Source: a virus. From it: 33,691 nt of DNA. A program made the translations under genes and the position numbers. Position 1 is the first letter of the stretch, and each line of letters starts with the position of its first letter. The notes under the pieces were generated by a model. It did not search any database and was not told where the DNA came from. It saw nothing but the letters and a program-made list of their open reading frames with translations. The stretch covers positions 1 to 33,691 of IMG/VR virus record IMGVR_UViG_3300027970_000085. One strand, 5' to 3'. Positions 5,520 to 33,691 of this stretch are shown piece by piece.

Positions 5520-5593
5520 TTGCGTGAGGCGGGACTCGAACCCGCGACCTTTAGGTTATGAGCCTAACGAGCTGCCAACTGTTCCACTCCGCG
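5520..5593 (-). tRNA. Initiator-like tRNA-Met (CAT), possibly degenerate
   Basis: Cloverleaf on the minus strand: acceptor 5' arm 5593-5587, D arm, anticodon stem TTAGG/CCTAA with loop CTCATAA (anticodon CAT at 5560-5558), and T arm GCGGG/CCCGC with loop TTCGAGT. The sequence follows bacterial initiator tRNA: CGCGGAG start, unpaired position 1 against A72, and CTCATAA loop. Two defects are visible: an extra A (5525) bulging in the 3' acceptor strand, and an A.C mismatch in the D stem (GAAC/GCTC). Only part of the three G:C initiator pairs remains (A-T, G-C, G-C). No CCA is encoded. It is antisense to the late operon and has its own terminator. Confidence 0.8.
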
Positions 5594-5609
5594 CTGCAAT
5601 AATAATCAA

Positions 5610-12326: not shown

Positions 12327-14308
12327 CAAACTATTATGAGTTGCTGATGGATGATGGCGAATCGTTGGACTTATATGATGTCACTGAATTCCCTATTGAC
12401 TTATCATTCTTTCTCCTGGACCCATCAAAGATTGAAAAGCGCGGAGGCGCAGCATCCAATACATTCAAAATTCCCGCGACAAAAAAGAATAACCTGAAGT
12501 TTCAGCACTTTGGCACTACAGGTGCTTATGGCAATGCTATAAGTGATTTCATTAAGCTGCGCGGCATCAGATTGAATGTTGGAGGTGCAAACGTTGCTAA
12601 CGGATTCCTGCGCGGCAAATCGCATGTGTTTGATTCTAAGCCTAAATATTACGAAGTGATGTTCCAGGGAGAAAATAAAGACTGGAGCGATTTGCTTTCC
12701 GAAAAGAAGTTGATAGAGCTGCCGTTCCCTACAGTGGATTGGAGTCAAACTGTTGTTGAGAATTCATGGGCGAACACTTGGGAGGATTGCTACACCTCGC
12801 CAATGTGTTTTTATGGAATGAAAAATAACGTTCCGCAAAACAAGCTATTTATGGATTATGGAGACTTCCGGTACTGGCATTTTGCAAGGTGGGTAGTGGA
12901 AGAAATGTTTAAGTCCATAGGATGGAAGATTCACAGCAATTTTATTGAGAGCGCTGACTTTTCAAAGTTTATTACCTACCACAACGACTTGGATTTTTAT
13001 GCAACAAATCCAAGTGAGGTTAATCTTGGCAGCAACCTGATATTAGATGAAAGAACCTGCATGCAATATCTGAAGGGTATAGTCGAGTTTTTTAATTTAC
13101 AAATTCATGTGGTTAGTAGCAGGCGTGAGATTTACATTGAGCAGTTTAATGATTTCTTTCTGCAAGAATTTTCAGACAAAAGCAATTTTGCAAAAGAGAA
13201 TTGGACATCTAAGTTAGACACATCAAAGGAGAATGTATTTGCTCCGTTCAGCGAAGAACAACAAAAATCAAAATCTGTTGGATTAAAGCAGGATTGCCTT
13301 TCTGAATTTATACAGGAAAGCTACAACCCACTTTATGACGAGTATCAAATTTTCAGCCAGGACAACATTGATTTGTATATCACAAACTATGGCTATAACA
13401 GAATAATTGAGCCATACTATACGCATGTATTAGGTAATGAGCCGGCAGATAAAAAGATTAATTTATTCTATGCCTCCGGCTTTGAAGATGCTGACATAAA
13501 AAGTAAATCAGAGAACAGTTACTTCTCAGGCTTCTTTTCAGCATTCATAATATCAAACTACAAGTACGCCCTGAATCCTAATGCAATTGAATATTATGAC
13601 TACTCGAGAAGTTTAAGTGTTCCTTTGATTCTTGATTCTATTTCTGATCCTACAGATTTGCCCGAGTTGCAAGGTGGTGGGAATCCAAGAATCGCATATT
13701 ATGCCGGGGTTAAATGGAATCAACCATTAATGAATTACGGTCTGCATTTCGGTGAGTCTGATGGCTTACCAGAATATCAATCCACGATTGCAGGTGATGG
13801 AAATAATTCTCACGAATACAACGCATTTGTTTGGGAGTGGCATGGCAACCCAATGAAGGAAAGACCATTGGCTTATCTGTGTGATTACGCTTATGAAGAT
13901 GGAGGCAAGAACTTTCACTATTCAAATCAGCATGTAGATATCGCTGCTTACGAGTTTATTCTTGATACTGAGTTTCATGAGGATAAGGTAAAGCTGGAAT
14001 TTCAGAAGCAAATTGTTATGGATGGAACGGCTTTTCAGCTTTACGGAAAATTGTTTTCAAGCATTAAGAATTCAAGGACATTAAAGGGCTATTTTAAACA
14101 GTCCCCGTTTGATATTTCAAACCTTGATTTCAGGAAGCTAAAGACTGTTCAACACAGAGATTTTATACTCTATGAAGTAACAAAGTGGAATCCCTTGGTA
14201 GATATGTCAACACAATGCAGGTTGTTAGAATTCAATATTCCAACAGAGAATTCAGACTCCTATCTATTAGCCCCAAATCATGTTTTATACGTTGACTTTC
14301 CAAGATAA
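12323..14308 (+). CDS. Large tail hub/baseplate-like protein
   Basis: 661 residues. The N-terminus (YYELLMDDGESLDLYD, then FFLLDPSKIEKRGGAASNTFKIPAT) is typical of Bacteroidota phage tail proteins in which an N-terminal beta domain handles attachment to the tail tube. The remaining 450 residues are aromatic-rich mixed structure with no identified enzymatic motif. It sits between the preceding tail protein and the tape measure, where hub or baseplate proteins are expected. The start overlaps the previous stop in ATGA. Function is assigned by position and by resemblance of the first 60 residues. Confidence 0.55.
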   Translation: MTNYYELLMDDGESLDLYDVTEFPIDLSFFLLDPSKIEKRGGAASNTFKIPATKKNNLKFQHFGTTGAYGNAISDFIKLRGIRLNVGGANVANGFLRGKSHVFDSKPKYYEVMFQGENKDWSDLLSEKKLIELPFPTVDWSQTVVENSWANTWEDCYTSPMCFYGMKNNVPQNKLFMDYGDFRYWHFARWVVEEMFKSIGWKIHSNFIESADFSKFITYHNDLDFYATNPSEVNLGSNLILDERTCMQYLKGIVEFFNLQIHVVSSRREIYIEQFNDFFLQEFSDKSNFAKENWTSKLDTSKENVFAPFSEEQQKSKSVGLKQDCLSEFIQESYNPLYDEYQIFSQDNIDLYITNYGYNRIIEPYYTHVLGNEPADKKINLFYASGFEDADIKSKSENSYFSGFFSAFIISNYKYALNPNAIEYYDYSRSLSVPLILDSISDPTDLPELQGGGNPRIAYYAGVKWNQPLMNYGLHFGESDGLPEYQSTIAGDGNNSHEYNAFVWEWHGNPMKERPLAYLCDYAYEDGGKNFHYSNQHVDIAAYEFILDTEFHEDKVKLEFQKQIVMDGTAFQLYGKLFSSIKNSRTLKGYFKQSPFDISNLDFRKLKTVQHRDFILYEVTKWNPLVDMSTQCRLLEFNIPTENSDSYLLAPNHVLYVDFPR

Positions 14309-30965: not shown

Positions 30966-31919
30966 ATGGGACTTATTAAAAAAGCAAGCGAGCTAAACAT
31001 CAATGATAAAATCAAAGCATTGATTTATGGACAGGCAGGTATGGGCAAAACAACACTCGCGTTATCCGCTCCAACACCATTGTTATTAGACTTTGACAAT
31101 GGTGTGCATCGAGTAAATTATGCGCATCTAAAAAATGTAGATACGGTTCAAATTTCAAGTTATCAGGACTTTTTGGACGTGTTGAATAATGAGGATTTAT
31201 CACCGTACGAAACATTTGTAATTGATACAGGTGGTAAGGCGCTGGACTATATGTCTGATTATATCATTAAGCGGAATCCCAAAATGGGGAAAGCCAGCGG
31301 AACGCTCACGCTGCAAGGATATGGTGAGCGCAAAGTAGAGTTTTCGGCTCTCGTAAAAAGAATTTCACAAATGGGTAAGCATATCATTTTCGTTGCTCAC
31401 CGAGATACGAAAACAGAGGGTGATGATACCCGGTATATCCCACAATTTGGAGGTTCAAGTTACGACAGTCTTGTTACTGAATTAGATTTAGTTGGGTACA
31501 TGGAAGCCAATGGACGCGAACGCACAATAACATTTGACCCCACAAGTCGCAATGATGGCAAGAACACCTGCAATCTCCCAAGCGTTATGAAGGTGCCGAA
31601 AATCGTTGATGATAATGGAAAGCCAACCGCAGAAAACGACTTTATGAAATCGAAAGTTATGAATGCGTATGAAAATCGCCTCGCTTCAAGAAAGCTGGAG
31701 GCTGATGCTTACAATAAGCTAATCGAGGAATTGAAGGAGAATATAGACTTTATCAATAGCAAAGAATCGGCAGATGAATTTGTAAGTCGCATTGAAAAGT
31801 TTGAGCATGTCGGAAATTCAAAAGCTGTAGCATCAAAATTGCTGGGGGATAAAACCAAAGCACTTGGCTTGGTTTGGAATACTGCGGACAAACAATATAT
31901 GGAAAAAGCCACAGTATAG
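30966..31919 (+). CDS. Sak4-like RecA-type ATPase
   Basis: 317 residues. Walker A G22-Q-A-G-M-G-K-T-T and Walker B ending D87 (TFVIDT), followed by a HRDTKTEGDDTRYIPQFGG region typical of phage ATP-binding proteins of the Sak4/AAA_24 type. These single-strand-annealing-associated RecA-core proteins drive phage homologous recombination and replication-linked repair. The C-terminal part (about 220-317) is Lys/Glu-rich helical. Just upstream of the nuclease (1-bp gap), forming a recombination pair. Confidence 0.8.
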   Translation: MGLIKKASELNINDKIKALIYGQAGMGKTTLALSAPTPLLLDFDNGVHRVNYAHLKNVDTVQISSYQDFLDVLNNEDLSPYETFVIDTGGKALDYMSDYIIKRNPKMGKASGTLTLQGYGERKVEFSALVKRISQMGKHIIFVAHRDTKTEGDDTRYIPQFGGSSYDSLVTELDLVGYMEANGRERTITFDPTSRNDGKNTCNLPSVMKVPKIVDDNGKPTAENDFMKSKVMNAYENRLASRKLEADAYNKLIEELKENIDFINSKESADEFVSRIEKFEHVGNSKAVASKLLGDKTKALGLVWNTADKQYMEKATV

Positions 31920-31920
31920 C

Positions 31921-32670
31921 ATGACAAACTACAAGATATATCCCAGCATACTTGATAAGTTCGAGGGCTACATAAATAGCTCAAAGGTTTATCAGCAATA
32001 CTATGGCTTTTCGGAGGAGCCGTCAATTACTGAGGAGGAATTTGAGCAAAAGAAATTCAGAGAGTTGATTGATGGTATCAACCGGGTTCCAATGAAATGG
32101 GAGGATAGCGAAGCGGCAGACAAAGGCACAGCTTTTAATGAGGTGATTGATTGCCTGGTCGAAAATCGCAAGTCAGATAAAATGGAAATTGAAAGGGTTT
32201 TTGATGGCGCAGTTGTAACAGCACTCAAAGCCAAATACAACAATCGCTCATTTGAGTTTCCTATGAACATTTGCAAAGAGTTTGTTGAATATCTAAATGG
32301 CACATTAACCCAGCAGTTCGTAGAGGCTGTATTGCCGACAAGGTACGGTAATGTTTTACTGTACGGCTACGTTGATGAATTGCTGCCTTTTAAGGTTGTG
32401 GACATTAAAACCACAAGCAAATACACGGCATATAAATATCGTGATGCGTGGCAAAGAATTGCTTACCCGTACTGTCTTAACGCAATGGGTAATAAAATCA
32501 ATGATTTCGAATTTGCCGTTACCGATTTCAAAAATACATGGATAGAGCATTACTCATATAATCCTGAAAAGGACATACCCGAATTGACAGGTCATTGCGA
32601 AGCATTTATCGAGTTTTTGGAAGCGAACCAGGAATTAATAATAAACCAGAAAATTTTCGCTGAAGAGTAA
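31921..32670 (+). CDS. PD-(D/E)XK (RecB/Cas4-type) exonuclease
   Basis: 249 residues from ATG 31921. The early helix has KGTAFNEVIDCLVE (GTxxN/HxxxE element). The catalytic core has D152 (YGYVDEL), D161-I-K163 (VVDIKTTSKY), and the QxxxY motif Q178-Y182 (WQRIAY). These are the RecB-family nuclease residues; no Cys cluster as in Cas4 is present. It would resect DNA ends to make single strands for the adjacent Sak4-like ATPase. An in-frame start at 31864 inside the previous gene is less likely. Last gene before the terminator at 32773. Confidence 0.85.
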   Translation: MTNYKIYPSILDKFEGYINSSKVYQQYYGFSEEPSITEEEFEQKKFRELIDGINRVPMKWEDSEAADKGTAFNEVIDCLVENRKSDKMEIERVFDGAVVTALKAKYNNRSFEFPMNICKEFVEYLNGTLTQQFVEAVLPTRYGNVLLYGYVDELLPFKVVDIKTTSKYTAYKYRDAWQRIAYPYCLNAMGNKINDFEFAVTDFKNTWIEHYSYNPEKDIPELTGHCEAFIEFLEANQELIINQKIFAEE

Positions 32671-32772
32671 CTGAAGAATCCCATAGCATAGCTAAAGGCA
32701 GGGTAAAACTGATAAGGGAAACAGCCTGCTAACAGCGAAGCAACTACAACAACGAGGTTACAGTTGTCAACT
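32671..32772 (+). other. Structured 3' untranslated stretch of the recombination operon
   Basis: No open frame of note. Local pairings are visible: GCAGG (32698-32702) with CCTGC (32725-32729), and a CGAGGTT-type arm (32753-32759) with AACTCG around 32769-32774. It leads into a strong terminator. It could be a 3' UTR or a small RNA processed from the operon; no promoter is seen for it. Confidence 0.35.
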
Positions 32773-32809
32773 CGGAGGAGAGAAAAGGTAAAGTACCTCC
32801 TCCGTTTTT
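32773..32809 (+). terminator. Strong rho-independent terminator
   Basis: CGGAGGAG (32773-32780) pairs with CTCCTCCG (32797-32804) across a 16-nt A-rich loop, followed by five T (32805-32809). It ends the early operon after the nuclease gene and isolates the RNA region and repeat gene downstream. Confidence 0.85.
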
Positions 32810-32827
32810 AAACATCGTTCTTTAAAA

Positions 32828-32880
32828 TGCACCGGGCCCAACTTTCGAGTTGTCAATTTTTTGCGAAATGGTTCGGTGCG
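32828..32880 (+). ncRNA. Structured RNA hairpin upstream of the tRNA-like element
   Basis: GCACCG (32829-32834) pairs with CGGTGC (32874-32879). Inside lies CAACT-TTCG-AGTTG (39-52 of the 32800s), a stem with a stable UUCG-type loop. The element ends 4 bases before the tRNA-like body. The same TGCACCG occurs again at 32955-32961 inside the tRNA-like insertion, so the single CGGTGC could pair with either copy. Confidence 0.5.
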
Positions 32881-32883
32881 CAT

Positions 32884-33019
32884 GGGGAGGTAGCTCATTG
32901 GATAGAGCGTAACGTATGCCCTGTTTTGGTCCACAGGCTTTTGCTGATTGAACCTGCACCGAGTAAGGCTGCGAAGATGAGATACGTTAAGGTAAGAGGT
33001 TCAATTCCTCTCCTCTACA
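32884..33019 (+). ncRNA. tRNA-like RNA with 64-nt insertion in the anticodon loop
   Basis: Acceptor GGGGAGG (32884-32890) pairs with CCTCTAC (33012-33018) with one G.A mismatch and one G.U. D arm GCTC/GAGC (32893-32908) has loop ATTGGATA; T arm AGAGG/CCTCT (32995-33011) has loop TTCAATT; the 5-nt variable loop is normal. The D-arm sequence resembles Bacteroidota tRNA-Arg. TAACGTAT (32910-32917) pairs perfectly with ATACGTTA (32982-32989), extending the anticodon stem to 8 bp and carrying 64 nt with two hairpins (GCC-TGT/ACAGGC and GCACC/GGCTGC). No U33 or anticodon is evident, so it is a tRNA mimic, Y-RNA-like RNA or unusual intron-bearing tRNA rather than an ordinary tRNA. Confidence 0.75.
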
Positions 33020-33044
33020 CAACAATCCAAGAGAGGGCGTAATC

Positions 33045-33114
33045 CATACATTATAACGTGAATAGATGTATGAAACACCACTTGTCACGAAGTGGAAGCC
33101 CATAGGATTTTTTT
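33045..33114 (+). promoter_or_regulatory. Two hairpins and T-run before the repeat gene
   Basis: CATACA (33045-33050) with TGTATG (33067-33072), then CCACTT (33078-33083) with AAGTGG (33090-33095) over a 6-nt loop, then 12 bases and a 7-T run (33108-33114). The T-run is too far from the stem for a standard terminator. It may be a weak terminator or processing site for the tRNA-like RNA, or a leader control element of the repeat gene starting 29 bp later. Confidence 0.45.
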
Positions 33115-33142: not shown

Positions 33143-33691
33143 ATGCAAAATTTAGAATCAAAAAGCAACTACGAGTTGCGAGGTATTATTACGGATTCGG
33201 ATTCTTCTGAATCGTTGAAGAACTCCGCATGGGAGTTGCTTAAAGAGAAGTCGCCAACCAACAGCGAACTCACGTACATCATCCGCTGGTGCTCTTCTGA
33301 ATCGTTGAAGAACTCCGCATGGGAGTTGCTCAAAGAGAAGTCGCCAACCAACAGCGAACTCACGTACATCATTGAGTATTGCTCTTCTGAATCGTTGAAG
33401 AACTCCACATGGGAGTTGCTTAAAGAGAAGTCGCCAACCAACAGCGAACTCACGTACATCATCCGCTGGTGCTCTTCTGAATCGTTGAAGAACTCCGTAG
33501 GGGAGTTGCTTAAAGAGAAGTCGCCAACCAACAGCGAACTCACGTACATCATTGAGTATTGCTCTTCTGAATCGTTGAAGAACTCCGCATTGGAGTTGCT
33601 TAAAGAGAAGTCGCCAACCAACAGCGAACTCACGTACATCATCCGCTGGTGCTCTTCTGAATCGTTGAAGAACTCCGCAGGGGAGTTGCTC
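33143..33691 (+). CDS. Tandem 30-residue helical-repeat protein (runs off window)
   Basis: Starts at ATG 33143 after an AT-rich leader; open to the last base, at least 183 codons, no stop seen. Residues 9-20 (NYELRGIITDSD) are a degenerate half-repeat cap. From residue 21, 30-residue units read SSESLKNSxxELLKEKSPTN then SELTYIIxxC: two amphipathic helices per unit, HEAT- or TALE-like in size. Variation is confined to unit positions 9-10 (Ala-Trp, Thr-Trp, Val-Gly, Ala-Leu, Ala-Gly) and 28-29 (Arg-Trp alternating with Glu-Tyr). No signal peptide or enzyme motif. Such arrays usually bind nucleic acid or protein. The minus-strand open frame over the same bases is an artefact of the repeat. Confidence 0.7.
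   Translation, partial: MQNLESKSNYELRGIITDSDSSESLKNSAWELLKEKSPTNSELTYIIRWCSSESLKNSAWELLKEKSPTNSELTYIIEYCSSESLKNSTWELLKEKSPTNSELTYIIRWCSSESLKNSVGELLKEKSPTNSELTYIIEYCSSESLKNSALELLKEKSPTNSELTYIIRWCSSESLKNSAGELL
33203..33691. repeat. Tandem 90-bp coding repeats with alternating unit types
   Basis: Units begin at 33203, 33293, 33383, 33473, 33563 and 33653 (last one cut). Outside three spots the units are identical at DNA level. Units 1, 3 and 5 end ATCCGCTGG-TGC; units 2 and 4 end ATTGAGTAT-TGC, a block in which 6 of 7 bases differ, so the higher-order period is 180 bp. Codons 9-10 vary individually. Confidence 0.95.

Follow-up and report, generated by a model that had tools for sequence, protein, structure and literature searches.

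The phage genome analysed here contains a tRNA body whose anticodon loop is replaced by an insert of 64 nt, which raises the question of whether this locus specifies an interrupted tRNA, a tRNA mimic or an RNA element that acts on the neighbouring genes. The window, i.e. the whole stretch of 33,691 nt that was analysed, represents an entire virus record of IMG/VR with terminase, portal, tape-measure and integrase genes, and it belongs to a phage of Bacteroidota-type bacteria. The element is located in the early region, downstream of a putative nuclease gene and within a 472-nt gap without a credible gene that extends from this gene to the next ORF (Table 1). According to the data described below, it is probably a non-decoding tRNA-like element and fairly likely a member of a family of leader elements. 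The more specific proposal, to which we assign even chances of being right, is a non-decoding tRNA-like leader RNA of a putative early transcript that most likely serves as a substrate of tRNA-processing enzymes.

Table 1. Positions of the tRNA-like element, its structural parts and the neighbouring features in the window
Feature	Position	Strand	Remarks
Neighbouring gene, phrog_35319 family	31864..32670	+	Relatives annotated as HNH endonuclease; query for finding related loci
5' hairpin: outer stem GCACCG...CGGTGC, inner CAACT-TTCG-AGTTG	32829..32879	+	-19.1 kcal/mol
tRNA-like element, whole	32884..33019	+	Sequence, layout, shuffle tests
Acceptor stem, 5' strand GGGGAGG	32884..32890	+	6/7 pairs with 33012-33018
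D arm GCTC-ATTGGATA-GAGC	32893..32908	+	Layout; 4-bp stem
Extended anticodon stem, 5' strand TAACGTAT	32910..32917	+	8 Watson-Crick pairs with 32982-32989
64-nt insert in place of anticodon loop	32918..32981	+	Not stabler than shuffles
Extended anticodon stem, 3' strand ATACGTTA	32982..32989	+	Perfect pairing with TAACGTAT
T arm AGAGG-TTCAATT-CCTCT	32995..33011	+	Layout; 5-bp stem
Acceptor stem, 3' strand CCTCTAC and discriminator A (A73)	33012..33019	+	Pairs with 32884-32890
Branched structure, GGGC/GCCC closing two hairpins, then seven T	33024..33114	+	z -2.5, 5/300 shuffles
Next ORF	33143..33691	+	Starts 123 nt past element; leaves window end; complete in L003

Architecture and surroundings of the tRNA-like element

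The layout of a tRNA body, consisting of a 7-bp acceptor stem and of D and T arms with correct spacing, is present with six of the seven acceptor pairs formed. The tRNA body reported by the first-pass annotation is accordingly real with respect to the 4-bp D arm, the 5-bp T arm and the TTCAATT loop, whereas the acceptor that had been called canonical is imperfect, containing a G2-A71 mismatch in addition to a G3-U70 wobble. The body is further characterized by UA at positions 8-9, the discriminator A73, a variable region of 5 nt and the nucleotides U15 and A48, which could form a Levitt pair. A scan for tRNA bodies in which the middle could vary freely in length detected one body in the window and two in 150 dinucleotide-shuffled windows. 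The perfect 8-bp stem that had been noted around the 64 nt was confirmed, as shuffling the middle part of the element 20,000 times produced eight Watson-Crick pairs at this place only twice. A chance origin of the tRNA body and the stem is unlikely. The anticodon arm of an elongator tRNA (5-bp stem, 7-nt loop, U33, purine 37) is absent from the element, the loop of which comprises 64 nt, and no excision from the insert yields such an arm, in agreement with the earlier remark that U33 and an anticodon are missing. The insert itself is not unusually stable: 196 of 500 shuffles were at least as stable, and the two hairpins described inside it are for this reason of little weight.

When folded without constraints, the whole element does not adopt a cloverleaf as its minimum-energy structure, and the tRNA fold is weaker by about 3 kcal/mol (-36.1 versus -39.4). 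The unconstrained fold uses a pairing between the insert positions 32947-32955 (ATTGAACCT) and the T arm positions 32997-33005, of which they are the exact reverse complement; this 9-nt complementarity was equalled by 20 of 3000 insert shuffles. ARAGORN did not call the element in the window, and a search of the window with Rfam at gathering and permissive thresholds left it unmatched, the only hit being a tRNA-Met (CAT) at 5521-5594. This tRNA gene follows the terminase gene in a gap and, being on the minus strand, runs against the direction of the phage genes. A group I intron (>200 nt with a conserved P3-P8 core) was rejected in view of the insert length of 64 nt and the missing Rfam match, and the interpretation of the insert as a tag-peptide frame (ATG CCC ... 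TGA, 11 codons) was dropped as it comes without tmRNA features.

The hairpin upstream of the element (z -2.75, 1 of 300 shuffles) is separated from the tRNA body by a spacer of 4 nt (GCAT). The branched structure between the element and the next ORF is terminator-like and may function as such. The upstream half of the gap (32671-32830) likewise folds well (z -2.0) and contains GGAGGAG...CTCCTCCG followed by five T, and is probably either a separate RNA or the terminator that ends the upstream operon. The next ORF (33143-33691; from 1434 in L003) is composed of near-identical tandem repeats of about 120 nt (SSESLKNSAWELLKEKSPTNSELTYII...), the units of which differ in sequence between the window contig and L003. 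A BLAST search of the element region against phages revealed no relative, and the only other copy found is an identical one on a second contig (L003/L127).

Related elements in phage and prophage loci

Homologs of the putative nuclease gene were collected from 80 loci on viral contigs and 36 loci in genomes, mostly of Bacteroidales. Phage and prophage loci of this set contain tRNA bodies with non-decoding anticodon arms, the loops of which range from 4 to about 70 nt, and the same scan applied to shuffled DNA gave no body with at least six acceptor pairs. These relatives support the earlier suggestion of a phage tRNA mimic. The related bodies are mostly located 1.5-2 kb upstream of the nuclease homolog, whereas some follow it like the element of the window, and nearly all are oriented like this gene. 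Many nuclease-gene loci are devoid of the element. The anticodon arms include CCTC-ATTG-GAGG with a 4-nt loop and TCCTG-CATGT-CAGGA with a 5-nt loop, as well as GTCTG-11 nt-CAGAC, TCGTG-16 nt-CACGA, ATTCAGTAA-24 nt-TTACTGAAT and, in the cultured phage BS-TP3, GTATTC-44 nt-GAATAC. In the cultured and annotated phage BS-TP2, unannotated elements are present at 13732, 19550 and 30195, located 26, 19 and 33 nt ahead of an annotated CDS, respectively, and the last of them is a near-canonical tRNA-Val. Canonical or near-canonical tRNAs also precede ORFs in some phages of the related loci.

The family is defined by its architecture; the D arms differ among the members, which may descend from different tRNAs, and identity elements are not conserved across the family. 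Many relatives score 40-54 bits with the Rfam tRNA model (RF00005), and no other Rfam family covers them. A flank common to the window and BS-TP3 (CCAARGAGAGGG) was considered as a proof of homology and discarded, since the matches in a pattern scan were close to the number expected by chance and included just one additional copy of the element seen in BS-TP3. An attachment-site reading was also set aside, as the elements have complete bodies and occupy the early region at a distance from the integrase. As separate observations, the DUF2693-FD RNA (RF02926) occurs upstream of Sak4/nuclease genes in the same phages (L177, L188, L189, L202), and five loci (L136, L141, L146, L152, L166) have a common 3' acceptor and flank (CCTGACTACGAGGCCAAAGTAACTTAAAGAGAGGGC), whereas their T arms differ and their middles differ strongly, which gives the impression of a shuffling of tRNA genes at one site.

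Among 17 distinct bodies, 98.5% of the cells are paired and both sides have changed in 15 of 16 pairs, with a covariation score of 0.921 versus 0.273 in shuffled data (0 of 500 shuffles), although this covariation is partly circular because the candidates were selected for pairing. L177 and L251/L252, which show the same architecture as the window with 8-bp extended anticodon stems and inserts of 46-48 nt, are distinguished by three compensatory pair changes. Compensatory changes in the 8-bp stem, named in the first-pass annotation as a check, are thus found between two relatives, whereas the stem of the window is known only with its identical copy. Within an orthologous group of eight elements, the anticodon stem is kept via one compensatory and several G-U changes. 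The covariance model R1 gave 80 matches at E<=0.1 in 100 loci, some of them being canonical tRNAs, and 71 of the 80 matches, canonical tRNAs included, are oriented like the putative nuclease gene.

An ORF start occurs within 40 nt for 16 of 28 distinct elements, compared with 23% of random positions, and the elements are often placed 17-37 nt ahead of the start codon. The 50 nt upstream of the elements form more stable folds than their shuffles do (mean z -2.2), with 16 of 26 reaching p about 0.05 or less; a hairpin just upstream is present in most family members but not in all, and terminator-like hairpins are found directly upstream of related elements. A GTGAR motif upstream of 11 of 26 elements, compared with 10.8% of random 55-mers, was noticed first and counted afterwards; it is absent upstream of the window element.

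Features that connect the window element with the family are the tRNA body with its non-decoding extended arm, the hairpin upstream, the strand and the neighbourhood. It is set apart by the acceptor mismatch, by its location downstream of the nuclease gene and by the terminator-like structure before the ORF; its insert is the longest in the family, and no ORF starts within about 40 nt, the same-strand ORF being 123 nt away. The family covariance model recognized it in two half matches only (15.3 and 15.0 bits; E 0.017 and 0.021). On the basis of the insert length, the ORF distance, the acceptor mismatch and the half matches, the window element is regarded with moderate confidence as an atypical family member.

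Interrupted tRNAs and other rival explanations

The reading as a tRNA gene with a short intron, from which removal of the 64-nt insert would leave a normal tRNA, draws on phage tRNA arrays, in which many genes contain a short insert whose removal yields a canonical tRNA (45 of 101 bodies among the matches listed), and on the 'enigmatic' tRNA introns of Lak megaphages (PMC6784885). A relaxed model with a 6-bp stem moreover provides the arm TAACGT-ATGAGAT-ACGTTA with U33, the anticodon GAG and A37. However, no split of the window element gives the regular arm described above, and GAG, a leucine anticodon, would require a class II variable arm, whereas the variable region of the element comprises 5 nt. 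Additionally, the element is solitary, with no other tRNA within 3 kb, whereas the resolved introns sit in arrays, and relatives with 4- and 5-nt loops contain nothing to excise. An intron is accordingly improbable at this locus, and the new class of short tRNA intron that had been considered is unsupported for the window element, as excision leaves no canonical product. A subgroup of relatives (L130, L205), in which excision of about 9-15 nt restores a canonical loop, may contain very short introns.

The main rival is a cis-acting leader, i.e. an attenuator or a put-like antiterminator, in which the tRNA fold would compete with an alternative fold and thereby control read-through into the ORF. 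The hairpin upstream and the branched, T7-ended structure downstream of the window element are consistent with this explanation, as are the terminator-like hairpins of the relatives and the pairing of the insert with the T arm in the unconstrained fold. That complementarity, however, is one of many for which one could look, and no conservation of it was observed; the hairpin upstream would be transcribed ahead of the tRNA body, and elements located 17-37 nt from an ORF come without a downstream structure, so that a regulatory leader with alternative folds appears rather unlikely. A decayed tRNA gene that has lost its anticodon would explain the G2-A71 mismatch, the missing canonical anticodon and the occurrence of a single known sequence with an identical copy, but such a pseudogene is very improbable in view of the rare 8-bp stem, the intact D and T arms, the compensatory changes that preserve bodies and arms in relatives and the repeated placement before ORFs on the coding strand. 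G3-U70 is known as an identity element of alanine tRNAs, and A20 is found in Arg tRNAs. Together with the intact tRNA body and the early region, these nucleotides could point to a decoy or sponge that captures a tRNA-directed host enzyme or defence factor, such as an anticodon nuclease, an aminoacyl-tRNA synthetase or the CCA enzyme. Anticodon nucleases, which the first-pass annotation had in mind, are disfavoured because they need the anticodon loop, so that an element devoid of an anticodon offers them no target; the identity elements are not kept across the family, and the frequent position right before ORFs suggests a role in cis, which makes a decoy a far-fetched explanation.

A generic pattern matched viral contigs with a perfect 7-bp acceptor in 71 of the 124 matches listed (window copies included), and a general scan of the loci gave, among the matches listed, 101 tRNA bodies with a middle of 40-200 nt, none being found in shuffled DNA. 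For 45 of these 101 listed bodies, a single excision results in an arm of 5 bp and 7 nt with U33 and purine 37, as compared with about 2% expected from shuffled inserts. The resolved inserts, again among the matches listed, comprise roughly 40-60 nt and often interrupt the anticodon stem within its 5' strand, and 41 of the 45 listed resolved bodies have another tRNA within 3 kb. Such inserts in phage arrays look like short introns and may extend the tRNA introns of Lak megaphages. Short-insert tRNAs were noted in L007, L009, L013, L017, L023, L053, L054, L056, L069, L089, L091, L096, L109 and L110; an example is the insert of L007 (ACG/.../GCATTCTAAGCCGT; Arg TCT), the isoacceptor of which is missing from the ARAGORN list of L007. 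Inserts of this type have a common core of a hairpin followed by UNACAGCAA and possibly constitute a new class of minimal tRNA intron. The inserts of L052, L059, L090, L100 and L124 end in GUUAUC after a CCGAAG-like core and mostly resolve to canonical tRNAs, and those of L011, L018, L019, L045 and L086 end in UUACUU(CG) after GGUGRCGU, few of them being resolved.

Proposed processing of the putative leader and comparison with known systems

The proposed leader RNAs would form a loose family in phages and prophages of Bacteroidota, in which stems and loops of unrestricted size take the place of the anticodon arm and the tRNA body is usually placed just before an ORF and often after a hairpin. 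The determinants of RNase P and RNase Z are those retained in the elements, and the anticodon, which these enzymes do not need, is lost. We tentatively propose, from the architecture and position of the elements, that tRNA-processing enzymes cut the transcript: the acceptor/T-arm elbow would be recognized in cis by RNase P of the host at the 5' end and by RNase Z or exonucleases of the host at the 3' end, and the transcript would be cut at the tRNA body. The cleavage would separate the upstream RNA from the message, which would gain a defined 5' end, and since the anticodon plays no part in processing, the anticodon arm would be free to vary.

More generally, it is conceivable, though somewhat doubtful, that phages adopted the tRNA body as a cis-acting leader module of general use, on which host tRNA enzymes or a phage factor act. 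In that case, different tRNAs would have repeatedly lost the anticodon and become fixed before phage genes, thereby controlling the message. If the elements are leaders, they represent a recurring RNA device of gut Bacteroidota phages, three of which BS-TP2 appears to carry, and the tRNA body would serve as a signal for processing or regulation in which decoding has no share. Solo tRNA bodies that excision did not resolve, with an ORF start 12-35 nt downstream, were observed in L049, L063, L067, L072, L076, L098, L105 and L123; these bodies of the first viral survey could be further instances of the device, in other groups of phages and beyond Bacteroidota. tRNA finders miss such genes or list them as undetermined or intron-bearing tRNAs. 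No description of non-decoding tRNA-like leaders was found in the open-access literature, and although tRNA-like structures are of a known kind, their use and their place before phage genes appear to be undescribed in that literature.

Among known systems, the tRNAs of Lak megaphages with 'enigmatic introns' (Devoto et al. 2019, PMC6784885) resemble the window element in that a phage tRNA gene has become longer through an insert which is left unexplained by bacterial tRNA finders. The Lak inserts are read as introns in real tRNAs, whereas the window element is solitary and gives no canonical tRNA after excision. The Rfam tRNA family (RF00005) has the acceptor, D and T arms in common with the elements, the anticodon arm of which is, in contrast, non-decoding and of any size in the family; the window element is not matched by this model. 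The bacterial Y RNA YrlA is also a tRNA mimic, with D- and T-like arms and without decoding. The elements differ from it by the leader position before ORFs, and the Y-RNA-like nature that had been suggested for the window element was not borne out by any match to an Rfam Y RNA. A tRNA-like end, an extended helix replacing the anticodon arm and G3-U70 are likewise features of tmRNA, but the window element has a full D stem and received no tmRNA call by ARAGORN, its match to the permuted tmRNA being at chance level (10.4 bits versus a cut-off of 47). In tRNA punctuation, known from animal mitochondria and from bacterial tRNA-mRNA operons, tRNA bodies mark the sites of cleavage before a coding sequence. 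The tRNAs are functional there, whereas the bodies described here are non-decoding, and the likeness lies in the proposed mode of working.
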